Program-made: the position numbers and the translations under genes
The notes under the pieces: generated by a model
Told to the model about the DNA's origin: nothing
Seen by the model: only the letters and a program-made list of their open reading frames with translations
The model's database searches: none
DNA from: Aphrocallistes beatrix
Taxonomy: Eukaryota > Porifera > Hexactinellida > Sceptrulophora > Aphrocallistidae
DNA: 64,000 nucleotides
Direction: 5' to 3'
Assembly (NCBI GenBank): GCA_963281255.1
Contig: OY725488.1
Span: 2,734,285-2,798,284, forward strand
Part shown: positions 2,105-62,089 of the stretch, piece by piece
Layout: every line of letters starts with the position of its first letter
Position numbering within the stretch: position 1 is the stretch's first letter

Positions 2105-3019
2105 CTACACCAACCTCTGACCATTAAAGGTAGGGTCACACAGGGATATAATGGGCACAATATTGTGTGCATAAATGGTGTCCACTCTCCAAAACTGGTG
2201 ATCATTATTAGTTGCATTGATCACTAAAATATCTAGATGCGCTAGAGCACCTAAAATAGCTAATTCTACATTTGTACCCCATTCGTTTGGAATGTTGATT
2301 AGCTCAAAATGATCGTCCAACTCCTCTTCACTTGTAATGCCTGACATGTGCATGACATTTAAGGTGTGTTCTGGACTAATGCGGAATTTTGTAATCAAAT
2401 TTGATTTCAAATCGTCGTAATGTTTCTCAGTACCAAATATGATATGAGATAAAGAACGGTAAAGACAATTACCGTCCCCAATGACAGGACACAGATTTAA
2501 AGTGTCCCCAAACATTTGTGATAGCCGTATTCGTAGGGATCTATAATACAGTCCTAAACAGCTATCAATAATAGTCACAAAAGTGTTCTCATAGTCTGCA
2601 ATCAACTCAGGATCCATGCCAATACTTATGGCTAACTGAGCCCTCATGTTCATGGAGAAGCGATTGACAGTACCTGTTAGACATACTGCTGCTCTAATAG
2701 GAATTGAGGGTTGACTGGGAGCTGGATCCCTGTCATCCCTGTCATCCTCAGAGCGACTCCTAAAGTCTGCAGTAGAAAATGAAATTTCACTCAATGATAT
2801 ATCTATTTGAGAAAGATTCATGGTATCATTAAGGGATGGATTGATATTATGGTTTTGGAATACCTCACGGTAGACCACATTCCTAATCCAAACGCCACCC
2901 GAAGTGGAATAGTTTGCTCCGCAAACCATGACTTTCAAGCCCTTAGGGTTCTTAACTCGACTCAGGGCAACGTACAATTGTCCATGACTGAATATCAGGA
3001 GATGGTAGAAATATACCAA
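2105..3019 (-). pseudogene. Helitron helicase motif VI and C-terminal OTU-like cysteine protease
   Basis: Begins with helicase motif VI (HGQLYVALSRVKNPKGLKV) after a frameshift near 2990. A low-complexity linker and an OTU-like domain follow. The OTU nucleophile region is PVIGDGNCLYRSLSHIIFG, with catalytic-type Asp and Cys present, at about residues 175-195. The matching C-terminal histidine is not clear in the remaining 60 residues, so the domain may be truncated. OTU domains are deubiquitinase-type proteases and occur at the C-terminus of some animal Helitron proteins; their role in transposition is unproven. The first 12 residues are a shadow frame. Confidence 0.85.
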
Positions 3020-3662
3020 CAGATTCTAGACTCTGCCCCTGCCCTTTGTTAATTGTTATACAATAGGCAGGGCGAATGGGAAACTGCTTCCGTCTGAGAA
3101 CAAACGGAAAATCTGTTTCAGAAGGAGTCATTATAATGCGAGGAATGAACACTCGTTTGCCACAATGGACACCTGTGGCAATTTCGGCATCTATAACATT
3201 GTTTAAAAATGCTCTAATTAGTAATCGGGTGCCATTACACATCCCATTCGTGGGATCGAGACTGCGCAATAGTATAATTGACGCATACTCCTTAAGGTAG
3301 AGGTGGTGTGGAGGCAAGCTTGTAGGCGTAATAGAATTAAGGTATTCAGTAGGATACATAGCTGCCTGACTGGTATCTACTGAGTCTGCACTCAGTAATA
3401 CCTTTGCTTCACCAGGAAGTTGGTCAATCACGTATTTATTTATCTTTTCAGTTGTCTCATTTTTAGGAGACATCATAATACGTGGCGTGACGTAATCACG
3501 ATCATTAAAGTGTTCTTTAATGTTACCATATATAGCAGTGGCTAAGTCTGCAATAGACTCACCACGTACTACATATTTGTGATCTAAATGAATCATGTTA
3601 TTCTCATCATGAGGCTCAGTACCTTCTCCTACCCTCAATAAAAGGTCAGAGAAGTTACTCAC
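2952..3662 (-). pseudogene. Helitron Pif1-type helicase, C-terminal half
   Basis: Same reading frame as the previous block after the TAA at 3681. It contains the family sequence YLNSITPTSLPPHHL followed by LKEYASIILLRSLDPTNGMCNGTRL and, at the end, CITINKGQGQSLESVGIFL, which corresponds to late SF1 helicase motifs. A frameshift near 2990 then moves the motif VI segment (GQLYVALSRV) into another frame, so the tail read in this frame (after about residue 225) is not original sequence. Confidence 0.88.
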
Positions 3663-3680
3663 CTCTTCATGATCCTGGCA

Positions 3681-5399
3681 TTAATCCATTCGAAGACGCA
3701 TATTTATGGTCAATTTCATCACTTTGACATGGTGCCAAAGTGAAGATCTGTTAAGGCAGGCTGATACGACCTCGGCCCTCGATCCACGCCTAATGATGGG
3801 TAGGATTTGTCGGAAGTCACCTCCAAATGCAATAACTTTGCCGCCAAATGGTAGATCATTGGAGCAGAGATCTCTCAATGTCCGATCTATACATTCAGCA
3901 GCATGTTTATGCATCATAGGAGCTTCATCCCAAACTAAAAGCTTAGCACCCTGTATAAGTTTGGCTAAAGCACTCTGTTTAGTGATATTACACACAGATA
4001 GTTCATTCAACGTGATAGGAACTTTCAGCCTAGAATGAACAGTTCTCCCGCCTTCTAGGAGGAGAGCTGCTATTCCAGATTTAGCCATTGCTAGTGCGAT
4101 TTCACCACGGGAGCGAATCTTAGCTAACAATGTATTGTACAAAAATGTTTTGCCAGTCCCACCGGGACCGTCAACAAAAAATGCTTTGTTTTCAGCAATA
4201 GGATTGTCTATAGACTCCATAATAGAGTTATATGCACTCAACTGATCAGGGTTCAGTAAAGGCACGTTGGTATCTGCAATTATGGCTAGTTCAGGTGCAT
4301 CATAAGCAAGTTCATCTTGAATGATGCGCGGTAGATCAAATGGACTCCTATCTTGAGTGGGGATATGCATTCCGGGATAATCGGACAAATATTTTCCATG
4401 CTTTTCTAAGCGATTCTCAATATCTAGTAACGCACTATTCAAAACAGACGCATTCAATTTGACATTGGGAAAAAGAATTCTCGCACGAAGTAGAAAATCC
4501 TCTGCAAGAGACGCCTTATGCTTATTCCACAGTGCTAGTGGGTCACATGGCTCATTGAATAGAAGGATAGTAACAAATAACTGTCGCAGTTGTGCTGGCA
4601 TAGCACAGTTAGCGGCCTCAGTGAGACAGTCATCGGACTCCTGGTCATCTTCCAACAGGCCTCGTCTACGGTATGCCTCCTTAAAGGTAGTGCAGACGGT
4701 GCCATCAGGGAGAGTGCGGATATCCTGGTAACAGGTACAGCCTGTTACATGGTTGAGAAGCATTCTGAGGAAGTAACGCTCTCCTTCACCGGGATGGGCG
4801 GAATAGACACGACCTATCATGTTACCATGTCCTTTCAACCTTTCGGTCCACTCACGTTTGGATTTATTCCACACAAACTCATCAGGGAAGTTGGTGTATG
4901 TGAGCTTGCGAGCACTAAGGTATTTTTGGTTTGCCAAAAACCATCCTGTAAGGGTGGTATCTCTCTGTCTACGAAGAACCTCCTGCAAGTCAGAATCTCC
5001 GGTAAACACGACAGGCTGGTGATGCTCCAGATGGAGAGCTAACCTCATGACATGTGGTAGGTTAGCATGAAGCTCATACGCAAAGAGTCGGTAGCAGGAT
5101 TCAGCAGCAGAAACATAACGCGCTTCAAGATAATTGACAATCTCATCGACGTCCATGGTTGCTTTGTTAGTGCTATTTCCAGCACTATCACCAATGCGAA
5201 ATTCGACAATAGCTCTATCATGGCCCTTATACACATACTTGTAGAGGTATTTAACAGCACTAATGGTAGAGCAAATCTCAATATTTATATGAGCATTGTA
5301 TCTCAAAAGTAAATATGGATTGTATGGAACAACCCACCTATTGTCCAGCTGAATTCCATTCACAATAACTGTACGGCCGTTATTTCGACGTTTGTACAT
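3681..5399 (-). pseudogene. Helitron Rep tyrosine region and Pif1-type helicase, N-terminal half
   Basis: In frame with the Rep block upstream, separated only by the stop at 5454. The paired catalytic tyrosines lie in AVKYLYKYVYKGHD near residues 48-62. The Pif1-like SF1B helicase follows: Walker A in DGPGGTGKTFLYN (about residues 405-417), Walker B in KLLVWDEAPMMH (about 480) and FGGDFRQILPI (about 525). The helicase would unwind the donor strand. A TAA at 3681-3683 interrupts the frame just before the C-terminal half, which resumes in the same frame. Confidence 0.93.
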
Positions 5400-5453
5400 A
5401 GGATAGCTGTCATTACCGGTTGTGGTAAACTGAGAAAATACTTTGGGGTATTT

Positions 5454-7055
5454 CTAGCTGCATTTTCCATCGCGCATACAGGCAGCATGTTTCCTTACTA
5501 CGCCGCATGGGCTGTGGATCATGCAGTACTTCACAATATGATAAAGTCTGGGGTTGAGATCCTTGTCAGGAATCTCAGCACAGACTATCTTATCGTACAT
5601 AGTAGGATCTCTAGGTTTATCCTGATCAGATAGGATGATCAGGATATGTGCATGAGGGAGACCGCGCTTTTGAAACTCGATGGTGTATACGTGCGCGAGT
5701 GGTCTCCCTAGAACATGCTTAACGCAGATGTCATTAAGCAGTTCACGCAATTTCATTCTGAATACTCTTATAGTTAAGTCTGGACGGTCAGTCGCTTTCT
5801 GATTCAATAAAAGAGCAGAAGAAATCTCTTCCCATTTCGGGTTACATGTAAATGTAATAAGCAAATCAGGTTTACCGTATTTCCGTACGATAGACATACT
5901 GCCCTGATAGAGCTCGAACATCTGTCGAGGACTGCCAGTGAAGGAAGAAGGTAGTATGATCCTCTTTCCATACGCCATAGGATTGACGTCACCTGCAGAT
6001 ACTGCATCAGCCAGACCTTTGTATAGATCCACTCTGATCTTTTCCTGGTTTAACTTTATGTAGTTCAACCTTTGCTGCTCAACTTTAGCGTACATGTCCA
6101 CGATATACTGGTGGAACAGTCTGCCAAAGAGATGCAGATAGCTCAGAGAGCTCCTCACCATCAGGCGGTAAGAGTAGAACTCCATTGCAGTGACACAGCC
6201 TTTCCCGCTACTGTGGGGAATGCCCAGATGCCAGCCGTTATCTCCTGAAGGAAACAATAAAACATAATGGAGGCTATCGTATGCACAATTGGTTTCAGTG
6301 ATACGTTTTAAACCTCCTGTACGTGCATGCAGCACTATATCCCTGGTTGCCACACCTTCAGTGTAGCCATCTCCAGGCATTATGACTGCTATTTCAGGAG
6401 CAGTTGGAACGTTATAGCGTCTCGGATCTGGTGCACCATCAGCTCTGATGGTCATCCTAACGTCTACTCCCCCCTTGTCTCTCATCATATCGACACCTTG
6501 TCTGAAGTGAGAGACGTAGGGGTTTACTTCATGCAGCAAGTTCTGCAGTAGTCGCAGCTCGGGGAGACTCGCATCTCCAAGGTGTCGCTGGCGATTCTCC
6601 AGCTCTCCCTCAGGAGTACCATCATGGATGTAAATTTGTGCAAATGAAGGAGCTTCTCCTACTCGAGGAGTCAGCTGCCCAATGTAATGATGCACAACAC
6701 CATGGATACGGAATGTGTACACTCCGCGCCTAGCGCTAGCTAGCTCTTTATCGAGATTAACGCCGAGTGAAGCGAACGCTAGAGCCGAGTTATAAGCTCG
6801 AATGTGTTCTCTGAATGCTCTGCCTCGACTGTCAGTAGCCGTCAGCAGATGCATCAGCAGCTCAGGAGGAGAAGGTAAGGCGGGAATAACCACCTTCCCT
6901 TGTCCGCAGCAGATGGAAAACTTGAAGTCATCCTTAGTGCTAGTGGAGAGTTTTTCATTCTCCCAAAATTTAGCATTACAATGTGAACAGTGATATTCCA
7001 TCCGTCCAACTGAAAATTCGTCAATTATGTCATCAGAAGTTTCAGTTACTTGCAT
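5454..7055 (-). pseudogene. Helitron Rep (Helitron-like N-terminal, HUH nuclease) domain
   Basis: Rep makes the single-strand nick and joins DNA ends during rolling-circle transposition. The 533-residue block has a cysteine-rich start (YHCSHCNAKFWENE), the family motif FTCNPKWEEI at about residues 405-415, and the two-histidine metal site in KRGLPHAHILIIL near residues 465-480. The C-terminal cysteine/histidine cluster (HSPCG, CMRDGKCS) follows. It ends at a TAG at 5454-5456, but the next block continues in the same frame through KYPKVF, so this is a nonsense mutation rather than a natural end. Codon use and family similarity look normal otherwise. Confidence 0.92.
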
Positions 7056-7093
7056 ATAACGTGCAATAAAAGGAATGTAAAGTTAGTTTTACC

Positions 7094-26200: not shown

Positions 26201-27742
26201 AACGTAAAAGTAAAATTTTTATCGTTGATTTAATTATATTACTGATTTTCCTGCCACCTAATCGTACTAGTTAGACGGTAACTATTTTGATTTTAATGAA
26301 TTTACCCCCTAAAGTCTAGCGATACTAAAAATTGAATACAATTAGAGCGATTTTGACGTATTTATCAAATGGTTTATTACTTATTTGATAGTTTTTAGAA
26401 GCTCTAGGCCTCAAACATTGTTTTTTTGACACTTTGGAGCTTATATGATGCAAAGGTTTAGAAGAAAAGTCAATAAAATCCATTCAAAATAGATCTTAAA
26501 GAGAGTTCTTTTCTATAATACTCTGGGAATGACTGTTTTAATATCATATATTTAGCGATAATTGCATCATATATTAAATTCTATCAATCTTCATCATTCT
26601 TAGAAAAATTTGTTTGGTTCTGACCATTGGTTCTTTCATGGCTTTATTATAGGTAAAGTTCGGGCGTAGCATCTCTAGGTCCCGAAAGATCCCGATCTCA
26701 TATCTTAAAACTATTGAAGGTATAAATCCAATCTTAAATGAGAAGACATATGCGATCATATATACGTAGGTTCCTAAACATCCCTTTGTCAAAAAACTAA
26801 TATTTCTCGAATAATCATTGACTTTGATGTACTACAAATTCAACTTTAAAACCCCATTTATGGTTCAAAAGTGATACCTCTCTATTTCTGTCAATATGTC
26901 CCAAAATTCTTAGTTCTCAATTGCAAATATACTTTTTATAATGATATATATATATGATTCATTAATAATAATTGTACTACGTACATACTTTGAAATCTTA
27001 AGTTTAAAATCAATAGTCATGTGATGATGTAGCATTGTTCGAAAATTATAACCTGGAATCATATGCGTCGGATCCACCCGGCCACCCGGCATGGGCCGGG
27101 CGGCCCTAAGTGGCTGCCCGGCTCTACCCTGTATCGTCGGTTATGGGCCGGATAGGCCCGGAGGGCCTACCTGGCTGGGTAAAAGCTTACCCGATACATT
27201 CCCAAAGTCCTAGAACCGTGTATCAGGCAGTATTATGTATTGTGCCGTGAATGTAGCGGCATCGGAATCGATTGGGCCGACCCCGGAGCCTACGGGCCGG
27301 GCGGCCCCAAGGGCCGGTGGGCCCATTTCCGACGCCTATGCCTGGAATCTATAGTCGTGGACTCTTGTTCAAACTTCCTAATATACTTTTTAGAAGCACT
27401 TTATTCATTGTAAATTGATGGATTTTACTCTGCAGTAGTATTAATAGAATTATTTTTCACTATTATTCGAAAATTTTGGGATTAGGTCCTCAATGAATTT
27501 TGTGCATTTTCATCATTCTTTTGATATTTTCCTCCAAATTTGGTGTGAATAGATTCAAATCATTAGAGTAAATGCGAATATATTATGCCTGTGAATGCTT
27601 TTATCTTCCTTAATGGTTCATTTTCATGGTTATTAATATTTGTAACATAAAATCTCTGTATTGACTTTAAAATTTCAAAATTCGGTTTTGATATTGAAGT
27701 TGAAGCTTTTTATTTTATATCATTATGCGATAACCGTAGGAC
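26200..27742. mobile_element. Family G element, copy 2, left part
   Basis: Diverged copy of 12480-13930 (ACCCCCTAAAGTYTAGCG, GTCCCGAAAGA, CTAATATACTTTTTRGAAGC blocks occur in the same order). It is broken by a GC-rich MITE at 27061 and by a RAG1-like element at 27743, and resumes at about 29575-29745. Confidence 0.75.
27061..27340. mobile_element. 280-bp GC-rich MITE with 9-bp target duplication
   Basis: Ends ATATGCGTCGGATCC and (inverse) CATAGGCGTCGGAAAT. CCTGGAATC occurs at 27052-27060 and 27341-27349, a perfect 9-bp duplication as made by Mutator-like transposases. The interior is packed with GGGCCGG/CCGGGC and is far more GC-rich than anything else nearby. Confidence 0.85.
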
Positions 27743-28347
27743 CACAGTGGCCGGAAATGGCCATTTACAGGCTTTAGGCATTTAGAGTGTAGTTAGACAA
27801 TTAAAATGTATTACATGCCTATAGGATATCGATATCAGTGATTCAAATAAAAGTATTAGTTTTTTTGTATGGCTTCAATTTTTTGAGTTATGACGCCATC
27901 ATTTTATAAAAAAATTCTTTTTTATTGGATAACTACCCTACGAGAAGAGAATTACTCACTAAATGTATTATCAGCCTGTACTAGTAAATTAAGTAGAGCA
28001 TTTACATACAGCAATCAATTTAAATCACTGAAATACTCAAGATATTTTACATTTCTGCTATAAATCAATACATATATGGATAATATTCAAAGTAATACTT
28101 GTCACACAATCAATTATAATATTGACTAGATGTCGCCAGCATGCACTAACGCTTAAATATTTAGTTATATGTTTTCATTAATTCATTTCAAGCAACCTTG
28201 GAGACTAGCACTCACACACAATATTAGGGAATCAACAATCAAATCCTTGATGTATTCTAATCTATTTTCCCCCGTTTTGATTCTATCTTAGAGGCCATCA
28301 TTATTTTGTATTTGAGTAATAAGGGTCGTTCTCAGTTGACAATCTTA

Positions 28348-28828
28348 CTAGTAGTCTTTGGTGTTGGTTTCAAAATTGAATTTTCTTGATAGATGAACGC
28401 TAAATGTTTGAACATACTTATTCAACCCTTCTAGACCCTCCTCTGAAAAGCTTTTTAGGCCAAAACTTTTGTTGCACGTTTCTATGAGTTCTGAAGAGTG
28501 CGCCAATAATTTGTGAAGTGAGGTTGTGATATTTCCCATTGAAATCTTACTACTATTAATTCGTTGGTTACCTTGTATAATTCATTAACCCCAAACCTAG
28601 AATTCGAATCTAGCTTGAGAAATTACTCAGGATCAACATTACTGAATATTGCGACCGCTGCTTGAATATGCCGATTAATTGGAAACCAGATCTTATTAAC
28701 TCTAGTTCTTTTAATTCAGAGTGAGTAACTGTGCATAATTGGCAAGTAGCACCGCCTGCACCACTGAGTAATTTTGACATTTTGCCGTCAAACATAGTGC
28801 GTAGAGTATATGGACATGACAGTGACAA
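28348..28828 (-). pseudogene. RAG1-like transposase remnant
   Basis: RAG1-type transposases cut at CAC-heptamer ends with a DDE catalytic triad. Two blocks remain on the minus strand. 28828-28640 holds RTMFDGKMSKLLSGAGG followed by ATCQLCTVTHSELKELELI, matching the second catalytic Asp and the Cys pair of the family. 28539-28348 holds SLHKLLAHSSELIETC and FSEEGLEGLNK, matching the final catalytic Glu region, with that Glu kept. The sequence between and upstream, including the first Asp, is deleted or unrecognisable. It is closely similar to the copy at 58004-60099. Confidence 0.85.
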
Positions 28829-28846
28829 TTACTTAGTGTTGTACAG

Positions 28847-29035
28847 TTGATTAATGAAAGGCTAAGTAGGGAGATTTTGATATTAAGATTAGTTGAAAAG
28901 ACGAATATCACTGTGGAAAATACTGCTAACAAATGTATTTGTACTCTAACAAATTGGTGTAATGAATACGACTTAAAAATTAATCATTCGAAACGGGGAC
29001 TTTTGTTAATTTGTCCGAACGTTAAGTATGGATAA
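28847..29035 (+). pseudogene. Non-LTR retrotransposon RT fragment
   Basis: A 62-codon ORF with TLTNWCNEYDLKINHSKRG, resembling the W-x-x-x-x-x-L-x-x-N-x-x-K region of LINE reverse transcriptases just after the catalytic FADD motif. It lies inside RAG1-like copy 2 in place of the transposase N-terminus. Confidence 0.55.
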
Positions 29036-29574
29036 TTTATTCATAAAAAAAAAATTAGTTCGCCACCCTTAGACCATCTAGGCAAATGCTAATATCAACC
29101 TTTGACATACAAAGTATGCATTCTATATAGCCACTAAGTGGGTTAGGAAGTGTTTTAGAAGATGCTAGTGTAATTAGCAACATACCTGAGTTATAAAATC
29201 AATATTCAGTGACCGCAGATATTACGTCCAAAAATAAGATGAAAAAGAGAAATATATTAATAGAAACCATTCACAAATTTAGAATATTGTTTGTAGTCAA
29301 AGTTATTGAGCGCTTGTATGATTAAATTGAGCTCATAATAGAAAGATCAAACGCGATGATATTTGGACTTGTTTAATGACTCAATAGGCAATTTCTAAGA
29401 ATAGAAATACTTTCACTTTTAGAATATCATATCTTGGATACAAATAAATATTTCCTGTTGAAACTTTGCAAGTGCTAGTTTTAGAGTGTATATATTCTAA
29501 AAATTACCAAGATAACAGGATTTATCACCATCGATAATTCGCCCTAAAGCCTGTATACCGGCCACTGTGAGGAC

Positions 29575-44022: not shown

Positions 44023-47000
44023 TTAGTGATTCGTTGAGTTGTTGCTAACATCTGGTACCTTAAATGATTCGTATTCCGAATTCATTAGGCGAATAACTGG
44101 CTCGTAATGATTGTGATTAATGTTGGATGTGTAGATGGAGATAGCATTTGGATCTCTGGCATGATCAGAATACCGATGCCAGATTTTTCGCGTCCAGAGT
44201 TTGGTAGCATCATACAGTTCTGTAGATATACATACGTCCAAGTCCAACATGCAAGAAATGGCCATCACCTCGACATCACTAGCCCATACATTATTTTCTG
44301 TCATAGCTGACGTTTTTAAGTATGTCACAGGAGATCTATCCTTACTGAAAGTCTTAAGGTACCGGTTAACGATTGATTTCCCATCCGTTACCATGTATCT
44401 GCACAATTCTGCTCTGAGCTTGGCATGGTGGTTTTCGGTGCCAGATACCATCTTAGATATGCACCTAAAGAAACAATTCCCATCCATTCCAATCTTTTCA
44501 GTCTGCCACGGAATGAACTGAGACAGAAGAGAACCGGCTAGTGCTGGTTGTTGTTCGAGGCTCTCAACATAAGCAATCCCAAGTAGTTGACACTTCTCCT
44601 TTTGCCATTGCTCAGTAATAGGATGATAGCACGGTCCTAATTTGGGGCAAGCTGGCAATCTGAATGGCATATTTTCTGTCGCGGAGGCGAATCTCTTGTT
44701 AATCAACTCCGATTCCAGGTGTTCACAATTCTGAAAGAATAAAAGACGAAAATATACTTAGAATTACATACCAGACTACGATCGTGATATAGTTAGTATG
44801 TTTACTCACAGCTGGGAATAGAACCTTGTGTGCCTACTCGATACAATGTCGGCTCTGCATGGTGGGGTTATAGCATTTGTTAGCAAAAGTTTCTTCTGTC
44901 CACTGAAGAAGCATGTTCATAACTTCTTCTCTCTAAAACACAATTGAACTGATTATATTTGATTCAAAGAAACATTTTATACATTATTAGATAATAGCAA
45001 CAAACCATTTGGAATGGAGTAACATTTTTGAGAACAGAGAATAGGGCAGTAATCGTTGGACACATCTGTCTGTTCGGTGTGTTATGAAGTAATTCATGCA
45101 GTTGCGAAATAAACGCCTCGTTTATTAATTTCTTAATTACATCATCCTATAGTTAAAGAAAATAATTAGATCAAGTCCTGGGGTTCACTCACAAAATTAT
45201 TATATAAGTTGTACACCTTAAATTGACTTACTTTGAGCAGATTTAATTCTTCCACTATTGATTCTCGTGAAATACTGAATAAATACTGTTCGTCGTTCAC
45301 ATTCGTCACCTAACAAGATTGTTAGTTAAATCATACAAAGATCTAATTAATTGAATCGAATTTTGCATCAATCTATAGGACTATACATTGGGTCTCTTGG
45401 AAGCAGAATTAGATGAAACGTGTGTATTTTTTCTCTTCAAAGGTTTTCCTCGAGATGGAAAAAGTGTATTTGTTGGTGCATCTGCTATAGTAGACTGCTT
45501 ATTGAGTGGCTACAAATATAGGTTAATATTATACTTTATAAGGTAAGGTATGCTTAATTGATCAAGTGTCATTCACCTCGAATTCGATTTCGCGCTGACG
45601 ATACTTTTTAGACAAGTGAAGAGGATAGGTAACAATACGTTGTGTTTCATCTTTGATGGCGACTACATGACTTTTTGTTACCTTTGTTGCCTCGAAAGGA
45701 CCAGTATATTTAGGTTGTTTCGATGTATTTGGAAGCTTTTTATCTTTCCTGATGTTTCGCACCAAAAACAGCTCCCCCTCTTGGATATTAGAACTAAAAT
45801 TCCAAAATTGGTTTCATATTATTAAATATCAACAATGCTAGTTATAAGGAGATTATATATAATTATCGTATATACCTATTCTTCTTCACCTTCTTATCAT
45901 AAATACGTTTTTGCGTAGATTGCTCGATTTTGATGTTTACGCGAGCTTCAGATTCATTTTGCTGTCGATTGAATTCCATTTCACTACCTAGATCATCATT
46001 TGCTTCCATTTCAATATCGAATGGGTCAACTAGAGTCTCATTAATAATTGACTCATTTTCTGATGACTGTGGTTCTTCGCTAGGGTATGTAGACAACTTC
46101 CTGCTAAGATTAAGCAAAGGAATAGCATCACATTTTCGGCCAAACATAAGTTCAAAAGATGTAAATTTCGTGGCACGCTTGATCTTAGTGTTTGCAGCCA
46201 TCACTGCAAACGGTAGCTTTGTTGGCCAAGATCCATCAGAAGTTTTTCAATTTTTCTGTAAATAAATATGCATCAAATTCGTACAATACAATACAATACA
46301 ATTTATCACGTAATATACTTTAATGGCTAGTCTGCTGCTAGTAACTATTGAATACTTGACACAATAATTACGTGCATATATACATATTTCAAAATAACTA
46401 TTTAACATAGTACCTCTTCAATATCTTGTTGTGCGCCTCCACAAGGCCATTACTTTGAGAGTAATAAGCACTTGAACGCCGGTTATCTACTCCAAGATCA
46501 TGATGCATTGCATTGAACTCCTTGAAGAGGTTGAACAATTACTTGATCATAAGGCGAAAGATAGTTGGGTAATGTTATTAAGAAATTTAAGTAAAATTCA
46601 TATTCTTTTTGTAAATATCTTAAAACTATGTGCAGGTACAGGCAATCGAATGAAATTTTAGACTATACCGGGGGGAATTATTAATGATGTTTTGTGATAA
46701 ATAAAATAAAAATACGTATCAGTGTTTTCACTGTTTTATGACAGTGTTATGAAATCATACTGTAGGAATCATGATCTGTACTTGTTACGTAAAAATCTGA
46801 GAAAGTAATCATAACAGAATGCAAATGCTTTAAAACACAACGTAGTATAAGCAACAATTTACGGCTGTTTTGAAATATTTGGTTACAAATTATTCATGAG
46901 GCATACACAGCATTTCGTTGCATGGTTTTTCACTTAGAAGTCAAATCAACACTATTGGAAACTTCATGGCAAGTTTGTATGATTTATTCCCACTTTGTCA

Positions 47001-48444
47001 ATTATCATTAAGTCAACTTTGTCGATATGGGAATTGAATTTGACATTTATTGTAAGCTGTTGCCGAAGTGGGAATTGACAAAGTGGCATAATACCTACGT
47101 ACGTACTTGTACTACTCTGACCAAAATATAAATCATGTAATGGAAAGTTCAAAGTGAGGATAATCTAATCACAAAATACTACCTTGCTCGTGAATTCTTT
47201 ACCCTGGTCATGCTGGCATATTTTAGGAACACCGAACAGGAGATAAACACTCAACAGCTCGGCAACAACTTCAGCAGAATTTTTTGTTCTGAGAGGGCGT
47301 GCAACAACGAATTTGCTGAGGTAGCAAACAATCACAAGGACATGTTTGTATCCCAAATCATTATCTGGCATATCGGTAAACAGATCAATGCCTATATGCT
47401 GCCAAGGTCTTTCAGGTGGAACTATGGGCTGGAGTTCCCTGTGAGGATGAGAGATCTTAGCTGAATTGATCTGGCAAGAATGGCAAGATTTGACCTGGTT
47501 ACAGGGATAAACAATGAGAGAATATTACTAATAAGCTTCTGAAAACTATTTGAAACAAACTTACGTATTGTTTGATAGTCTGATACATTTTATCCCAAAA
47601 ATACCTTTGTCGAATCGAAGATGTCATAGCATTAATGCCTGGGTGATCGACGTGATATTTGTCCAGAATCTTAGGGATAGCAGATCTAGGTGGGTATTCA
47701 AATCGTTCAAAAACACCTCTTTTATTGCGAATGACCTATAATAAATACTCGTTAAAAATAGTACATTTTGTTACATACGTTACGAGACACTACAATTAAT
47801 TTTTGATAACGAAATTCTTGACCTCAGACTGTTATGTTCGAATACTATTGCTGAGAGCGGTTTAAACTTATAATCCGGTTGTCATGACCTATAATGTTTA
47901 TTAAAAACTTCGGTCTGGCACACTGATAGCGCAGCTCACAGCTTGGACGAGCTTCGCAACGATGTATAAACTAGATCAGTTAAAATATCCGAATTATACA
48001 CGAATCAAATTAGCATGAAGGTTATGAAATACATACAACTTTGTCACCAGATAAGTGGATTCATACACGATAAATGCATGCAGTCAAGAAATATCTGTAT
48101 CCTGAGGAACATGCAGGTTGTATAGATTAATCTTAAACTTCAGAGACATCTCGGCAATTAGAAAAGCTCAAACGGTATGATTTTATAGGGGCAAAGTGCC
48201 AAAGTAGGACAAATAAATTCTTCGGCAAAGAGGGTAGAAATGTAGAATGAACAATATGAGCACATGTTTTAACACTAAACAGGTTCCTCACCTTGTAGAG
48301 TGTATCTTCATCAAAACGGAAGTGAGAAGCCTTCCTTCGAAAATTTTTCTGCGCATATCTGGGTCCCTGTTTCTCCTGTATCTCGACGGGATAGATTCCG
48401 GTGGATAAGAATAAACGTAAATTATTATATTCAAGATCCTCCAT
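44023..48444 (-). pseudogene. Ginger1-like transposase: H2C2 zinc finger, DDE integrase, GPF module, OTU protease; eleven exons
   Basis: Minus-strand exons (mostly GT-AG, phases matching): 48444-48292, 47735-47565, 47494-47183, about 46533-46414, 46255-45876, 45793-45577, 45509-45387, 45309-45232, 45146-45006, 44933-44810, 44730-44023. Exon 1 carries STGIYPVEIQEKQG (YPYY-like region). Exons 2-3 give the integrase zinc finger (YHVDHPG...SCHSCQ). The DDE residues are in GIDLF, QHDQGKEF (exon 3) and NGLVEAHNK (exon 4). Exon 6 has the GPY/F-like YTGPFEATKV. Exon 11 is an OTU domain (GMDGNCFFRCI; His in NHNHYEPVI). This order matches Ginger1. Breaks: a one-base shift near 46235, a shift near 44880, TAG at 44834-44836, and an unclear exon 4 acceptor. 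Confidence 0.85.
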
Positions 48445-50022: not shown

Positions 50023-51125
50023 CTAAATGTTCAAAATACTCCCCATTAGCATCAGTACACCTTTGACAGCGGTGTAACCACATGTCAAATAGCTTAGAAT
50101 AGCTACTTGCTGGTATGCACTCGACTGCTTCTAAAAAAGTAGCGATTAGCTCGGTATCTGACTCAAAACGCCTGCCTTTTAGTATCTTTTTAGATTTGGG
50201 AACAGCCAAAAGTCACACGGAGCAAGATCTGGGCTGTAGGGAGGATGTTCAATCATTTCTAACCCTGATTGCCTAAGAAACTCCTTAGTCTTTCCTGTTG
50301 TGTGTGCTGGAGCATTATCATGATGAAATTTCATCCCATAGACCCCGGACTTTGGTCTCAACCTCTCCACTGCTTGAAACACTTTTGGAAGGCAAATCTC
50401 GGTGTACCAAGCTGATGTAACAGTATGCTTCGCAGGAAGCATCACAAATTCAAGAAGACCTCTTGTGGTGAAGAAAATTGCGAACATTCGCTTACCGACC
50501 GCCATGAATTGTTTGGGAATTGTGTCCGGTACCTCATCTTCAAAGATCCATTTCGATCTCTGCTGCTTCGTTTGCATTCAATAGATGTAAATCCATGTTT
50601 CATCACCCGTTATTACTTCTGAATGCCGCCGAGAATCTGTTTCCGAGTATTTCAGTAACATGGAGTGACAAAATTGGATCCGACGGTATTTTTGTTCCAA
50701 AGTTATCAAATGTGGGACTAACTTGGAACAAACCTTTAGACCAAGGTATTGGTGTAGGATTGTTTCTATTGTTCCCAATGATACTGATACATCGTGAACT
50801 TACTGACGGATAATAATTTGTCTGTCTTCTCTGATCAGTTCCTCCACCTTGACGATGTTTTCATCAGTGACCGCCGTAATCGGGCGTCTGGTTCGAACTT
50901 CATCGTCCAGGCACATATAACCCAAACGAAATCGGCTGTACCACTTGTAAACTGTTGTTTTGGTTGGTTCCATATCCCCAAAAGTAAAAACATCTCAGCA
51001 GTACACTTCGCAACGTTTAATCCACGTTTACAGTTGTCAAACATTATCGCTCGAAAATCCCTATTATTCAAATTTTCGATCGAAAAATAAAAACGCGAAA
51101 ATGACTTGACTAATTTGGCTAACAT
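50000..51125 (-). pseudogene. Mariner transposase (DD34D)
   Basis: Cut-and-paste transposase of the mariner family. Minus-strand pieces in order: the N-terminal helix-turn-helix region (FRAIMFDNCKRGLNVAKCTA, 51125-51040), first catalytic Asp in GDETWIYIY (about 50600), second in KFHHDNAPAHT (about 50320), and third in HPPYSPDLAPCDFW. Exactly 34 residues lie between the last two Asp, the mariner DD34D spacing. The C-terminus is CTDANGEYFEHLE. At least three frameshifts separate blocks starting 51125, 50778, 50577 and 50209. Its terminal repeats could not be fixed. Confidence 0.92.
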
Positions 51126-52098: not shown

Positions 52099-52863
52099 TT
52101 AATTAGAGGTAAGTTTAAGTATCTTCTTTTGAGTATCTTTGGGACAAGAGGTGGTAGAAGTAATATTCTTGGCCTTGTTGAGTAAACAGTTACTTGAAGT
52201 CATTAAAATACAACGTAGCATATCTTTTCCGTCAATACAGCAATCAGTACACTCAAAAGCCCAATCCTCACATTCTTCATCCTCAATTTTTAGAATAACC
52301 AACTGAGCCTCATCCAAATGCTCCAGGTGCGTATCGAAACTGGGCGAGTGGACACATGTGTCATCAACAAACGCCTGTACATTCGGACACCCTCGTAGAG
52401 CCTGGTCTACGGCTCGCTGATAGGTAGCCTGTGAGTTTGACAATCCAAAAGGCATGCGGTTGAATTCAAACTGGCCGCGATTTGAAACAGACGCAGTGAA
52501 CTCCCTATGCTTTTCCTTCACAGGCACGCTCCAGTATGCGGATGCCCCATCCAGTGTAGAGAATACAGTTGCTCCTCCCATACGATCGAAAACATCTCGA
52601 GTATCCGGCATCGGATAGGCATCTCGCTTCGTCACAGCGTTGAGATCCCGGTAATCTACAGCAAATCGATGGGTCCCGTCCTTTTTCTTCACTAAAATCA
52701 CTCGACTCGCCCAAGAGGAAGAAGAGGGACGTATGATCCCATTCTCGAGCATTTCATATATCTGCTTGGATACCTCTGCCTCAATTTCCGGAGAAAACAC
52801 GCAACGGCCGGCTTCTGATCGACCGCTTATCCAGAAGAGTGATAACGTGTTCCGCGGTTCCAA
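52099..52863 (-). pseudogene. Gypsy-type reverse transcriptase, N-terminal two thirds, with an unrelated C-terminal tail
   Basis: RT copies RNA into DNA in Ty3/Gypsy elements. Visible motifs: WASRVILVKKKDGTHRFAVD, DYRDLNAVTKRDAYPMP, FSTLDGASAYWSVPV, FEFNRMPFGLSNSQATYQR and the catalytic FVDD (QAFVDDTCVH). RNase H and integrase are absent. After HLEHLDEAQLV the ORF runs for about 65 further residues that are Cys-rich, do not resemble RT, and end at a TAA at 52099. This suggests fusion to other sequence. The first 20 residues are a shadow frame caused by the shift near 52795. Confidence 0.88.
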
Positions 52864-53686
52864 TTTCGCGCGGGCTCTTCGGGTTCTCCGCGAAAACGTC
52901 TTTCCATCTCGACAGCACCTTGCGTATGGCTGTCTCTTCTCGCGTTGATAGTTTCGGGTTTATATCGAACCTGGCCTCCAAGCTATCTCCCTCCTTTCCC
53001 ATCTGTCTGCATAATTTCTGCTCTAGTCGCCGCGTATCCCCGCGTGCCGCAGCTAAAGAGGTTTTCCAACAACCACCTAGCCTAACTCTCATGTTTTCCC
53101 AATCGAAAGTAGTATTCTTGAAGCGCGCGAGGAACCTTCGCCCCAATATAACCACCCTATTGTTAGTATCGAGTACTTCGATTTCGTGTTCTAGTGGTCG
53201 ACCATTCCCCACATCTATCGCCACGCAGGCCGTTCCACAGACCGCAAGCGCTGTCCGCCCTAGCCCATACACTTGACTGTACTTTGTGCTGTAAGGAATA
53301 TTCATCTTTTGTACGGTGCCTCTGTCCACCACCGAAGGATCCGCCCCCGTGTCCATCATTACATTGATGGGTTTGCCGTTCCATTTAACTGGTAGCACAA
53401 CCGCCGTCTCATGTAGAACACTATGCTGCGTCGTGGCCTGAAATACCCCTCTTCGACTTCGTGTATGTGGGCAATAGCGGACTTCGTATCCTCTTTCGCC
53501 ACATTTCGCACAGTGCCGTTCCGGGCATTGGGCCATAAAGTGCCTGTCCGAGTCGCAAATAAAGCACCGACCCTTCTTAGGGAATTGGCTTGACGGATAC
53601 TTCCTTGTAGGTCCATCCCGCCTCCCCATTGCCTCTTTGCTGCGTGGCGCATCCTTATATGTATAGAAACAGTTGAGAGCTAACAT
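52781..53686 (-). pseudogene. Gypsy-type CCHC zinc knuckles and aspartic protease
   Basis: The ORF opens with a basic stretch, then two zinc knuckles (CFICDSDRHFMAQC and CAKCGERGYEVRYC, about residues 40-80). These bind nucleic acid in Gag. A retropepsin-like protease follows with the active-site DTGA in VMMDTGADPSV at about residue 112. The linker to RT is present (VLSRWKDVFAENPKSPREIG). The frame is lost near 52795, one base out from the RT ORF. A possible acceptor (ATATAAG) lies just inside the start, so an upstream exon may be missing. Confidence 0.85.
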
Positions 53687-57300: not shown

Positions 57301-58003
57301 ATACCGTATGTAATTTTTAGCCCCATTTAGCATTTAGCCCCTGAAGAAAATAAATGTTTCACAATACATATGCAAGAGAGCTTTCGCTAAATATAACCGC
57401 ACGAGTGAACCAATAAATTTTGAACCCTCTTTTTGCACAGTGGGCTTTTTGCTGGAAATAGGGTGAAATTTTCACCCCTTCAGAATTGTATTTCTTTATT
57501 ATCATCGAATTCGCAATCGTTTCAAACCTGGATATGCGTAATTTCATTCTGATTGAACAAGTATATTGGTTGTTATGGTAATGCATAGTAGCATGCTTTG
57601 GATAATTGTAATTTCTGTTGTGTGGATTTTCAAAATTGATCACGTTTCATTGTTTATTTTTAGCACTTGTAACTTAGAAGGCTGAATTCCTTTAATGCAT
57701 ACTGAAACATGTATATTTGAAGTATAAAATTTAAATCTTGAATTCATTCGTTTTGTTTGTTTCTAATCTACAATAGATAAAAGCGATGTAACAGCTTAAA
57801 ATACGATTTTTTTCGGCGTCTATAGCATATTTTGTTCTGAAACTTATTGTGGCGTTTCGTTGCGTGAACTCTCACTGGTTTTTAAATGTAGGTTATAATA
57901 GTACTTTCAAAAAAAATAATAGTTTAGATCCGCCGGAGGGCGCCCAAAGTACCAAATATTCATTTGAACACATGCAACTTTAATGAAATGAAATATTAGC
58001 ATT

Positions 58004-60099
58004 ATGAATAACAAAGAAGCTTATGAGTTTCTATCCTCACGTAAGTCTGTCAGAGATGCAACAATCATATTAATGGATAGTCAGCAACTAGATGATGAAC
58101 ATTTTAGTAATATCCCGTACAAATTCGTTGAGTTAAAGAATGACAGAGAAAAATTTCGTAAAAGAAACGACCTAAATACATGGGATGAGATGATATTCTT
58201 TGACCATTCAACATCAGCAGAGAAGAGATGGTTATCATCTGAAGGTGATATTTGTACTGCTGATCATGTTATTTCAAAAGGGATCAGGAAACCACTCCTC
58301 GAATTAATGATTAAAGGACAAAGGTTATGCCTGGCATCTCTTTTAGCTCTGATTAAAAGCATAGCAGCTAGTGAAAACGTGGACAGCAAAACGATAGCAG
58401 CTATGGCTCTGCAATTTACCTCATCTTCTTCAGGAGATTATTCCACCAGTTCCTTCTGTCAGGAAATAGTCAGCAATGGCACATTTCAAGGCAATATAAA
58501 GAAACACATCTCAATCGATAAGTCTACGTTTCTCCTAGGGCAACTGGAAATAGGTAAGCGAAAGTACATTGAATTGAAGAGACTTTGTAAGTCAGACAAT
58601 ATAATCTTCCCTAAATACGAGGAAATTTCCCAGTATCGCGTAGATATTACTCTAGCGAAGGAATTCATTTTTATTCGCAATGTGTCTGAAGCGCCAATAG
58701 GAGTAGGGTTATCGTATATCTCTGTCATCAAACAGACAATTTCCAGACTACTTGAATCACTTCCCACAGATTCTGAATTTGAATTTCCGTTGACATTTTC
58801 TGGAACAGATGGTTTGGATGGATCTGGCTCTCATCAAGTTTATAATCAGGTTCAGGAATCACCAGATATTGTTTGATTTCATCCTCTTTGCTTTTAAACC
58901 TCTCGCTATCCACGACAGCGCACAAAAACTTATCTGCGATAACGAAAGTCCCAATTCACAATTTCAAATTCACCCAGTCACTTTCCTAGCTGCCAAAGAA
59001 AATAGCGAGAATATACGCCATCTTATGGATACTTACATCAATCCTATGTAGCAGATATGCAAGAAAATGGGATACTGCTCTCGCAAGGCCTTGTAAAGAT
59101 CAAATTGCTCAGGACCATGTTCGATGGAAAAATGGCAGGAATTCTGTCTGGAGCCGGTGGTGCTCACTGCCAACTTTGTACTGCGACCTTCGAACAATTG
59201 CATGATGTCGAACTTATACGAGATGGCTATCCTATTAACCGTTCAATAACAGCAGCTAAAGAACTGTTTCAAAGTGTCAACGAAGAAGAATTTCTATCTC
59301 TTGTTCCAATGACCGTTTTGGATTGACACATCAACCTATTTCTGACATCGATATAATTTGCTCTTCTCCACTACATTCATACACGTGCATCTTTAGATGG
59401 TTTATGACCCTCGTTTATCATCTGCAATCAGGAGCAAGGAAGTGGTCACCATCATCTCGAGGCATAAAAAACGCAATGAAGTTTGTTTCAGGCTTATTGA
59501 TGGAGAAGACCGGTATGAAGATTGATCAACCCAGCAGTGATGGTGGGACTACATCAACTGGTAATATTGCTCGAAATTGCTTCCTGGACAAAAACCAATT
59601 TCTTTACTGGGTTTGTTCTTTAATACCAACAGAATACCATGAGGTTTTAAAGGTCATCCACACTAACCTTTCAGTACTTTTGCGTATTTACAACAGCGAC
59701 AGAGAGATAAACACTGAAAGACTGGATATTCTTTGCAAGGACACATACGAATACATAGTAATCAGGTTCCCTTGGGTAAACATCACTCCAAGCTTGCATA
59801 AACTACTCGCCCATTCTTCAGAACTCATTAGAACTTGTAACAATAGCCATGGACTGAAAGACTTCTCTGAAGAAGCAGTAAAAGTTTCAAACAAACTTAT
59901 TATAAGGTATCGCGGACATCTTGCCAGAAAAATGTCATTTTCTCTCAATACACGAGATATCTTTTTACGACTGATGTGTAATAGCGATCCTGTCCTCAAT
60001 ACATATAGAACATCTACGAAACCTAACAAGGAAAACAAATCTTCCGAACCTCCCGACCAAGAGATTCTATTAACGCATTTAATCATAGGTACTAATTGA
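58004..60099 (+). pseudogene. RAG1-like (RAG1/Transib superfamily) transposase
   Basis: RAG1 and Transib proteins are DDE transposases cutting at CAC-heptamer ends. Four blocks follow in order: 58004-58876, 58870-59051, 59057-59326 and 59323-60099. They total nearly 690 residues, close to Transib length. The first catalytic Asp fits FSGTDGLDGSGSHQVYNQ (58808), the second RTMFDGKMAGILSGAGG plus HCQLC (59123). Further shared features are LRIYNSDREIN and PSLHKLLAHSSELIRTC, then FSEEAVKVSNKLIIRYRG. In that last motif the catalytic Glu position is Lys (AAA at 59881-59883). Frameshifts near 58865, 59050 and 59307 also break it. No RAG2-like (Kelch) sequence is seen. There is no RING or nonamer-binding domain resembling vertebrate RAG1's N-terminus. 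Confidence 0.9.
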
Positions 60100-60191
60100 A
60101 ATAAATGAGAAATTTACTATTAAATAAGAGAGGGGTCATTGTATTTCAATTAAGATACCATTCGAATGTGGGTATGTTAAATATGTGTCTA

Positions 60192-61575
60192 CATAGCCTA
60201 CTGTATATAAGGCCTCACAGTAACTTGCGGATTTGGGACTAGGGATGCGGAGGAAGAATGTTGAACTAATACATGAGCTGCCTTAAATCATTTACAAATT
60301 ACAATAGAGCTTAGGAATGTATTATCAGAATATATAAATATGGTGTCAAAGTACCCATATCCGTTGTTAAAAATTTGATTAGTCACCATATGGTTGCGCA
60401 ATAGGATATATTTGTGACAAATTTGGTGATTTTCAGAGGCCGTTTAGGGGCACTTCTAAGTGTTTTTATTGAAAGATTTTTCGCATAGAACTGAGATGTG
60501 AATAGGTTAATACGAAAAATTTGGAATTTTTTCATGGAATGTTGGTACATTCCATTTTTGCTATGGAAACGTGTTTTGGTCAGTTGGCGTTTTATCTTGA
60601 AAACTGCAATGGCTACACATTCAAATGTACAGTAGAACGTCAGTTATCCGAACTTCAGTTATCCGAACACTTCAGTTATCCGAACCCCTTGGTTGACCAA
60701 ACTAAAATATAATAAATGTATAAATGATGCATCCTGAGTTGATAATTGAAATTATTACACTTTCATCATTTTATATACTATTGATGATACCTACATAAGC
60801 TAATAAGTTTTTTATCCATATTCATCATTATGATTACTTAGTACTACTGACCAACTTTTCTATATAATCACATAACAACTTCAGTTATCCGAACCCCCGC
60901 GGTCCCAACCCGTTCGGATAACTGACGTCCTACTGTAATTCCATTTGATAGCGAATATACTACTTCCTATTAAGTGATGATATAATTTCGACCTCTAAAT
61001 TCAATAGTTTATGAGATATTCGATAAATTATCAAATGTGACCAATACATTATCGAATATCTCATAAACTATTGAATTTAGAGGTCGAAATTATATTATCA
61101 CTTAATAGGAAGTAGTATATTTGCTATCAAATGGAATTACATTTGAATGTGTAGCCATTGCAGTTTTCAAGATATAACGCCAACTGACCAAAACACGTTT
61201 CCATAGCAAAAATGGAATGTACCAACATTCCATGAAAAAATTCCAAATTTTTCGTATTAACCCATTCACATCTCAGTTCTATGCGAAAGATTGTGCAATA
61301 AAAACACTTATAAGTGCCCCTAAACGGCCTCTGAAAATCACCAAATTTGTCACAAATATAACCTATTGCGCAACCATATGGTGACTAATCACATTTTTAA
61401 CAACGGATATGGGTACTTTGACACCATATTTATATATGCTGATAATACATTCCTAAGCTCTATTGTGCTTTGTAAATGATTTAAGGCAGCTCATGTATTA
61501 GTTCAACGGTCTTCCTCCACATTCCTAGTCCCAAATCCGCAAGTTACTGTGAGACCTTATATACAGTAGGCTACG
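60192..61575. mobile_element. Foldback element, family B, complete, 7-bp target duplication
   Basis: Left CATAGCCTACTGTATATAAG and right inverse CGTAGCCTACTGTATATAAG, with inverted arms of about 530 bp meeting near 61040. GTGTCTA (60185-60191) and GTGTCTG (61576-61582) flank it. It lies in the 3' part of RAG1-like copy 1 and holds a pogo-type MITE. Confidence 0.85.
60630..60935. mobile_element. Pogo-type MITE (306 bp), TA flanks
   Basis: CAGTAGAACGTCAGTTATCC and (inverse) CAGTAGGACGTCAGTTATCC, flanked by TA. CAGTTATCCGAAC is repeated four times near the ends. Inserted in the left arm of the family B foldback only, so it post-dates the foldback. Confidence 0.9.
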
Positions 61576-61810
61576 GTGTCTGTTATTCATAATAAAATGC
61601 TTCTATTGCTTCTAGTGACTCAATTTTAAAGCTTAAAATATAATTTCTGATTATGACGTCATAACTTTTTAATGAGAAGACCTAGATAATTTTTTTCTGC
61701 AGAAATCGTTTTCTTGGTGTTGATATCCTATAGGCTAATAATACATTATGTATCTCTATTTTGCATAGTTTTCCTACTTCAATTTCACCCCCCAAAAAAT
61801 GCCCACTGTG

Positions 61811-62089
61811 TTTTTTGGGGGGGGGGTGGGTGGGGCGATTATTCGAGGGCCGGCAACTATTCGAGTATATACGGTCATTCAAATATAAATCAATTCAGAT
61901 AACTCGGATCAATTATAATCAATTCGAATCAATTCATATATACATGTATTCAATGAAATTATAATGGTTGATAAATAAATGTATGTATTATATTACGTGT
62001 AATACATGTATAAATACAGTAGTAACACAAAAAGTAGTGAATATAATTGTTACTTCTAAACTCTAAGATACAGTGGCCTGATAGAAACT
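61811..62089. other. No gene seen
   Basis: A G-rich run (61817-61836) then AT-rich sequence. Confidence 0.4.

Follow-up and report, generated by a model that had tools for sequence, protein, structure and literature searches.

A probable degenerate Transib transposon with CACAGTG ends in the sponge Aphrocallistes beatrix, and relatives with an inner end box at two unequal spacings

The window analysed here, i.e. 64,000 nucleotides of Aphrocallistes beatrix contig OY725488.1 (assembly GCA_963281255.1, positions 2,734,285 to 2,798,284 of the forward strand), contains an element whose ends start with CACAGTG and whose interior resembles transposases of the RAG1 type. To which branch of the RAG1/Transib superfamily does such an element belong, and how are its two ends organised? 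We consider it likely, with a rough probability of 0.8, that it is an old, inactive Transib cut-and-paste DNA transposon, and that its family is part of a large one-gene Transib lineage without RAG2. The genome searched comprises 100.5 Mb in 28 contigs, and the coordinates of the features are collected in Table 1.

The closest relative of known structure is HzTransib. The last block of the window gene (279 aa) matched the HzTransib chain 6pqn with E=2.1e-12, as compared to 0.43 for BbRAG1L of amphioxus, and it scored 12.7 bits with the Pfam RAG1 profile, i.e. under the cut-off. Four related elements (L030, L031, L032 and L033) were taken from the genome. L030, L031 and L032 contain single open frames of 761, 734 and 727 aa, respectively (stop to stop), in which the D-D-E catalytic residues and the zinc residues of the RAG1/Transib type are kept. 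These three elements have exact 5-bp target site duplications (TSDs) and CACAGTG ends, save for CACAATG at the 5' end of L032. In L033 the gene is split over two frames and there is no exact TSD. The L032 protein matched HzTransib (6pqn) at 2.8e-25, RAG1L (6b40) at 1.3e-9 and mouse RAG1 at 2.9e-6, and a profile of three proteins gave 9e-41 (143 bits) for HzTransib, 4.3e-13 (51.5 bits) for BbRAG1L and 7e-13 (50.8 bits) for mouse RAG1. HzTransib was the best match of known structure in these searches, which bears out the superfamily membership that the first-pass annotation, made from the letters alone, had proposed.

The Pfam RAG1 profile (cut-off 25) gave 26.8 bits for L032, 23.0 for the L033 piece, 18.2 for L031 and no match for L030. 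Over the whole genome it found 10 places, none of them above the cut-off and all within listed matches of the Transib lineage, in a search whose controls gave nothing. No second open reading frame (ORF) of at least 200 aa is present in L030-L032. The absence of a visible RAG2-like partner, noted at first for the window, holds for the element and for its three intact relatives; the Pfam RAG2 profile had 0 matches in the genome, in a search whose positive control did not work. In a small tree RAG1 and RAG1L are joined with a support of 100 and the family forms a clade with a support of 99, with HzTransib as the third branch; the tree cannot be rooted because it includes only one Transib reference, plus one RAG1L and one RAG1. 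The motif around the catalytic Glu reads SEEAVEACHK, SEEGSEACNK and SEEGLEASNK in L030, L031 and L032, SEEASEARNK in HzTransib, and SEGNEAGNK and SEGNESGNK in RAG1L and RAG1, respectively. Judged by its sequence, the window element is a Transib and not a RAG1-RAG2 (RAGL) element.

The C-termini of L030 and L031 carry, after the catalytic core, a motif similar to a CCHC zinc knuckle. In L030 the Pfam zf-CCHC profile reaches E=0.038, below the cut-off; L031 has similar letters and no Pfam zf-CCHC match. A CCGHC motif is described for the C-tails of invertebrate RAG1L in PMC7204232 (this and the other papers are cited from parts of their text).

The boundaries of the element were determined by comparison with its other copies. 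The window element starts with CACAGTGGGC at 57436 and its inverted copy finishes at 61810. A DNA search of the genome with 59326-60099 found at least 20 places, the window's own included, and a protein search with 59260-60096 found at least 145; the 19 DNA places outside the window are covered by 18 fetched regions. Among the other copies that reach the 5' end, 9 out of 11 begin at 57434-57436 (the remaining two at 57422 and 57446), and 9 out of the 11 that reach the 3' end finish at 61809-61811 (the remaining two at 61803 and 61814). Since most of the copies aligned by their ends begin and finish there, the CACAGTG-bounded inverted ends first seen in the window are the true boundaries of the element. 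Many copies share an internal deletion in which 57436-57982 is joined to 59881-60187 and 61576-61810; by this common structure they are a non-autonomous derivative family. In viral contigs a profile search found no relative, and a pattern search gave one match, L124.

Duplications of 5 bp, which had been expected of such an element, are exact in 12 of the 18 copies with two ends (e.g. TTAAG, CAAAT, TAGCC, CCCCG and TACAC), and none of the 18 has an exact duplication of 3, 4, 6, 7 or 8 bp. This tabulation takes the copies with both ends in hand, and those with one clean end or none are excluded (L009-L011, L014-L019, L021-L024, L026, L028 and six pairs of relatives). Two ends were sought in 10 relatives and both were obtained in 4. 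The tips read exactly CACAGTG in 28 out of 36 cases, several of them having been located by that very string.

The gene between these ends is a remnant. It had been described as a four-block gene, and the blocks are indeed parts of a transposase, but they are not exons, since the intact relatives have single open frames; introns between the blocks were rejected on the same ground. Stops in the frame of the first ATG are found at 58874, 58895, 58940 and 59003. Over 58875-59075 the relatives align best in another frame, and after a second frame change near 59303 the sequence is open to 60097. The two catalytic Asp contexts noticed at the outset were confirmed, with Asp codons at 58808 and 59123 that we take to be the counterparts of D600 and D708 of RAG1. 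The LAHSSEL/SEEA...NK region is also real, but the catalytic Glu within it, presumably E962 of RAG1, is replaced by a Lys (AAA) at 59881. Cys at 59168 and 59177 and His at 59797 and 59812 are kept. For orientation, the numbering of the 6pqn chain is lower by 17 throughout, so that D126, D225 and E436 of HzTransib are its D109, D208 and E419. In other copies the codon at the position of 59881 is GAG (L009, L012), GGG (L010, L011) or AGG (L022). An apparent AAA in the internally deleted copies we take to be alignment spill-over and no evidence, because the codon begins at the deletion junction 59881. To judge from these changes, the window copy is dead, i.e. a pseudogene with one catalytic residue lost.

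The ends contain more than the heptamer. In all ten families with a known 5' end, the best GGAATAGG-like inner box begins 11-12 bp after the heptamer, and in the 3' ends the inner box begins about 21 bp after it. In the terms used for recombination signal sequences (RSSs), the spacer between the heptamer and the 8-bp box GGAATAGG is 12 bp long in the 5' end and 21 bp long in the 3' end. The difference between the two spacings is 9-10 bp, about one helical turn, whichever box edge is drawn.

Beyond position 12, the 10-mer with the highest information in ten 3'-end clusters occupies 29-38, and a profile was built there. Scanned over 46 positions of the 5' ends, this profile was best at 19 or 20 in 6 out of 6 families. 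The clusters leave out L033, the window and L025 are represented by L017, and L025, which is of the window's family, is left out of the 5' ends. Fourteen further loci were then fetched, five of which had 5' ends, i.e. the new families L131, L133 and L135 and second copies of the first two (L132 and L134, respectively). The unchanged profile was best at 20, 19 and 20 in L131, L133 and L135 (3/3). Single inner-box matches are weak, their scores being reached by 51 to 1591 of 2000 shuffles. When the similarity between 5' and 3' ends was summed over the eight two-ended families, a peak was seen at an offset of 9 (50, the next value being 41), and the sum for adjacent offsets, 55, exceeds all 1000 shuffles (best 49). 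The pattern ACAGTGGN{8,22}AATAGG matched 107 places in the genome, as compared to 31 for the reversed control. Among 100 of the 107 matches listed, gap 13 occurs 35 times (8 sequence groups) and gap 22, which is the edge of the pattern search, 21 times (9 groups); the other gaps listed occur 0-5 times each, save for gap 9 with 11 occurrences, nearly all of one unrelated repeat. This repeat, ACAGTGGACTCCGCTTAATAGG, is found at several genome places and apparently has nothing to do with Transibs.

The letters of the inner box vary among the families and yet agree between the two ends within a family (AGGGAGTTG in L030, AAAGAATAGG in L031, TACAGGCTTTAGG in the second Transib element of the window), as is expected of a site read by the family's own transposase. 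One could argue that the unequal spacing was merely inherited from a single ancestral insertion or deletion near one end and plays no role in the pairing of ends. The families all belong to a single protein clade within a single genome, and the outer 8-14 bp are common to both ends in several of them and could suffice for cleavage; for RAGL, a reliance on the terminal 15-17 bp is proposed in the part of PMC7204232 referred to. That the box letters change among families and agree within them, with the spacing kept, would be unexpected under drift, and we regard simple inheritance as a possible but somewhat doubtful explanation.

For the window family, a word GGGTGAAATT shared by the two ends at 18 versus 13 bp was considered and replaced by the box at 19 and 29, which is consistent with the other families. 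The letters ACCT occur at positions 89-91 of the 5' end in 5 out of 9 families.

The 3' ends have a second conserved region further in. In the ungapped tip alignment of the 3' ends of seven families, agreement is seen at CACAGTGG, there is little for about 50 bp, and it is seen again at 63-90 around GTATTATNNRCMTATRGGNTNTC; 0 of 2000 random shifts give as much. C3 (a near-duplicate of L032), C2a and L033 are omitted from this alignment, and the window and L025 are again represented by L017. The conservation extends to TTATGACGTCAT at 146-157, a word lost in L031 and partial in C2b, and then nearly stops. The 5' ends examined showed none of the boxes of this module in their first 220-260 bp.

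With at most one mismatch, the distal-box pattern occurs 124 times in the genome, as opposed to once for the reversed control. Sixty loci with 64 distal-box places were fetched; they were chosen by the box and not by the heptamer, and places already in hand and most of the one-mismatch ones were omitted. CACNNTG lies outward within the searched distance in 48 of the 64 occurrences, and CACAGTGG in 45. The distal box is exactly 65 bp from the tip in 39 of the 48 CACNNTG ends; many of the loci are of one family, with 23 in the L032 cluster. Four of the 16 occurrences without CACNNTG are inner tandem copies and another four have the heptamer plus G with one base changed. In L080, L045 and L122 the subterminal 3' unit is tandemly repeated at a spacing of 157-158 bp (2-3 copies, 93-99% alike in the longest pairs), and the motif pair is also present in L100. 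Of the 3' end, L025, a copy of 695 bp with an exact TSD, retains only approximately the last 88 bp, and the box with them.

The module (box at 65, TGACGTCA near 150-157) could also be a transcription or 3'-end-formation signal of the transposase gene. In favour of this, the module lies on the downstream side of the gene and was not seen in the 5' ends examined, and we take TGACGTCA to be the CRE/ATF palindrome. However, its distance from the tip is nearly fixed, and the module persists in copies that lack most of the gene, such as L025, so that we give a transcriptional role a modest chance only. The distal 3' boxes are most likely further sites of the transposase or of a host factor. Together with its 158-bp tandem copies, the fixed 3' module suggests that sequence further in than the outermost approximately 40 bp of the end may matter as well.

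A second Transib element in the window was found via the distal box at 27808, with CACAGTGG 65 bp outward, and its other end was located by the expected duplication. The two ends share the 13-bp word TACAGGCTTTAGG, which is at 15 in the 5' end and at 24 in the 3' end, i.e. 9 bp apart. The inner-box profile is best at 20 in the 5' end, and this is the tenth 5' family mentioned above.

A region that might read the inner box is found at the N terminus of the proteins. The family profile aligns with mouse RAG1 from the nonamer-binding domain (NBD) onwards. The NBD-only chain 3gna gives 15.5 bits (E=0.033) against the family profile, and with a five-member profile of the NBD-like region the mouse NBD gives 20.7 bits, which is reached by 0 of 5000 shuffles (best 11.4). 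The match of the family to the solved HzTransib chain starts at residue 11 and thus downstream of this region, so the solved chain shows no NBD-like counterpart.

Given that the element is a Transib, cleavage and duplication similar to those of HzTransib and RAG are likely here. HzTransib and RAG are described as cutting at the heptamer's outer edge and forming hairpins on the flank (parts of PMC6941560 and PMC8355894). The transposase would accordingly be predicted to nick the outer edge of CACAGTG, to make hairpins on the flanks as with HzTransib and RAG, and to insert the excised element with a 5-bp stagger. The N-terminal NBD-like region would read the inner box, and the unequal spacing could make the transposase pair one short-spacer end with one long-spacer end, in a manner similar to the 12/23 rule. 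In its strict form this would be a RAG2-free "12/21 rule", in which the NBD-like region reads CACAGTG together with the inner box and the lineage pairs short-spacer ends only with long-spacer ends. We consider this rule speculative and, as it stands, unlikely. If it were true, the 12/23 logic would be an old, RAG1-borne property of Transib-type transposases, with no need for RAG2 or a vertebrate origin.

Several findings weigh against this picture of an inactive Transib and its asymmetrically paired relatives. Six of the 18 two-ended copies are without an exact TSD: the window, L012 and L132/L083 differ at one of five positions, L134/L123 at two, L033 at three and C9 at four. The window copy cannot make an active protein, and blocks 1 and 3 of its gene alone gave no significant PDB match. 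The offset of the inner box is 9-10 bp and not the 11 bp of 12/23, and the box is unlike the RSS nonamer ACAAAAACC, reading GGAATAGG, GGAGTTGG, GCTTTAGG and similar. In the window and in L032 the inner box is no better than shuffles (1148 and 1591 of 2000, respectively), the 3' end of the second window element scores best at 11 and not at 29 (6.9 versus 5.6), and some of the gap-13 or gap-22 matches may be other than Transib ends. The 3' end of L033 has no distal box, and in C2a the box is at 46 rather than 66. As the families share ancestry, ten families are not ten independent cases. Finally, in the part of PMC8355894 used here, HzTransib is reported to recombine 12/23 RSSs when combined with mouse RAG2, and mouse RAG1 alone to show no preference for asymmetric ends. 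For those proteins, this argues against asymmetric pairing without RAG2.

Nevertheless, this genome has many Transib families, and in it a one-turn asymmetry is found side by side with CACAGTG and an NBD-like region, in the absence of RAG2. The origin of the 12/23 spacing rule of antibody-gene shuffling could be tested in these Transibs, and at least three families (L030-L032), with intact frames and exact TSDs, provide end pairs and proteins for asking whether asymmetric synapsis needs RAG2.

Table 1. Positions of the Transib elements, their end motifs and the inserted foldback element in the window.
Feature	Coordinates	Strand	Remarks
Transib element, degenerate, both ends present, including a 1.4-kb foreign insertion	57436..61810	+	boundaries common to other genomic copies; HzTransib protein match
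Left target duplication TTTTG	57431..57435	+	right TTTTT at 61811-61815; 4/5 identical
5' heptamer CACAGTG, window element	57436..57442	+	
5' inner box GGAAATAGGG, end positions 19-28	57454..57463	+	top-scoring site for the profile made from the 3' ends
Transposase pseudogene, first ATG 58004, changing frames with stops	58004..60099	+	41% and 60% identical to L030 in tblastn searches with the intact relatives
Asp codon aligned to D126 of HzTransib (TDGLDG context)	58808..58810	+	
Asp codon aligned to D225 of HzTransib (FDGKM context)	59123..59125	+	
AAA (Lys) codon where HzTransib has the catalytic E436	59881..59883	+	
Foldback element inserted in the Transib	60187..61576	.	without counterpart in other copies
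TGACGTCA, close to where the conserved 3' module ends on its inner side	61654..61661	-	
Distal 3' box GTATTATTAGCCTATAGGATATC, starting 66 bp from the tip in the window copy (65 in most ends)	61722..61744	-	
3' inner box TGAAGTAGGA, shifted inward by one base relative to family copy L017	61772..61781	-	
3' heptamer CACAGTG, window element	61804..61810	-	
Second Transib remnant (1827 bp), both ends with CACAGTGG, flanked by the TSD AGGAC/AGGAC (27738-27742, 29570-29574)	27743..29569	-	
GCTTTAGG, inner box of the second element at its 3' end (end positions 29-36)	27771..27778	+	
Second element, distal box at the 3' end, with one mismatch and at exactly 65 bp from the tip	27808..27830	+	
Transposase fragments of the second element	28354..28804	-	matched by the L031 protein in tblastn (identity up to 70%, over 43 aa)
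GCTTTAGG, inner box of the second element at its 5' end (end positions 20-27)	29543..29550	-	

The foreign insertion in the Transib is a foldback element with arms at about 60173-61031 and 61044-61594, the arm pairs being 94% and 93% complementary. A short, presumably pogo/Tigger-like element whose inverted ends read TACAGTAGAACGTCAGTTATCCGAAC interrupts it at about 60628-60937. The L032 Transib adjoins sequence that resembles the end of this foldback element (TAGCCTACT...TATATAAGGCCT, compared by eye; TSD TAGCC), and L032 may have inserted into another foldback copy. Elsewhere in the window, all on the minus strand, there are a Helitron-like element at 2105-7082 (Helitron_like_N, PIF1 helicase and OTU protease domains in neighbouring ORFs), an OTU protease ORF at 44023-44757, an integrase core at 47165-47524, a fragment of a mariner-type Transposase_1 at 50179-50577, and the reverse transcriptase and aspartyl protease ORFs of a retroelement at 52099-53686.

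As to the known systems, loss of the RAG2L gene from a RAGL (ProtoRAG-type) transposon is a highly improbable origin of the window element: RAG1L and RAG1 are clear relatives of the family, CAC-starting ends and 5-bp duplications also occur in RAGL (part of PMC7204232) and one intact protein, L032, reaches the Pfam RAG1 cut-off with 26.8 bits, but HzTransib is far above RAG1L (143 versus 51.5 bits), the catalytic-Glu motif of L030-L032 has the Transib length, RAG1 and RAG1L cluster without the family (support 100), each of L030-L032 has only one ORF of at least 200 aa, and the protostome RAGL ends given in the same source, CACTWMCAAAC, are unlike those found here, so that this origin was rejected on relatives, motif length and gene content. 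The family nevertheless shares with RAGL/ProtoRAG and RAG1-RAG2 a homologous RAG1-type core, ends that start with CAC and 5-bp duplications; it differs from RAGL/ProtoRAG in having no RAG2L and in being closer to HzTransib. In ProtoRAG the heptamer is CACTATG and the conserved elements are 27/31 bp apart, whereas the heptamer CACAGTG found here is identical to the RSS consensus (both according to part of PMC8289069). As in RSS-type 12/23 ends, there is a CACAGTG heptamer (45/64) and there are two spacings approximately one turn apart; the nonamer ACAAAAACC is not present.

With the Transib superfamily (HzTransib, 6pqn) the family has in common the single gene, the D-D-E residues, the C-x2-C / H-x4-H residues, the CAC ends and the 5-bp duplications, at an identity to HzTransib of only 27-28% over the aligned core. 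The catalytic residues of HzTransib are D126/D225/E436 (part of PMC6941560), and CAC ends with 5-bp duplications are given as features of Transib as well as RAGL in part of PMC7204232. The same portion of PMC6941560 mentions Transib ends with heptamers and nonamers identical to those of RAG and with spacers of various lengths. Transibs with symmetric spacers of 20-22 bp are reported, along with a few that have 12/23-like ones (D. melanogaster Transib5, A. gambiae Transib2 and N1-N3), and asymmetry of the 12/23 kind is otherwise known in transposition from a few Transib families only, as far as the part of PMC8355894 consulted goes. RSS-like heptamers and asymmetry are thus not new in kind, as they were reported in earlier Transibs.

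The fly and mosquito Transibs resemble the present families in having a heptamer plus an inner element at unequal spacings and no RAG2. The original source for their 12/23-like ends is presumably Kapitonov and Jurka 2005. The families described here differ from them in spacings of about 12/21, in a GGAATAGG-like and not nonamer-like box, and in the occurrence of ten families in one genome. A literature search, with most subscription papers outside its scope, gave no earlier report of a 12/21 arrangement or of a fixed 3' module. As far as can be judged from the ends compared, the apparently new features are the inner box at two spacings (about 12/21) in ten families and the fixed 3' module.

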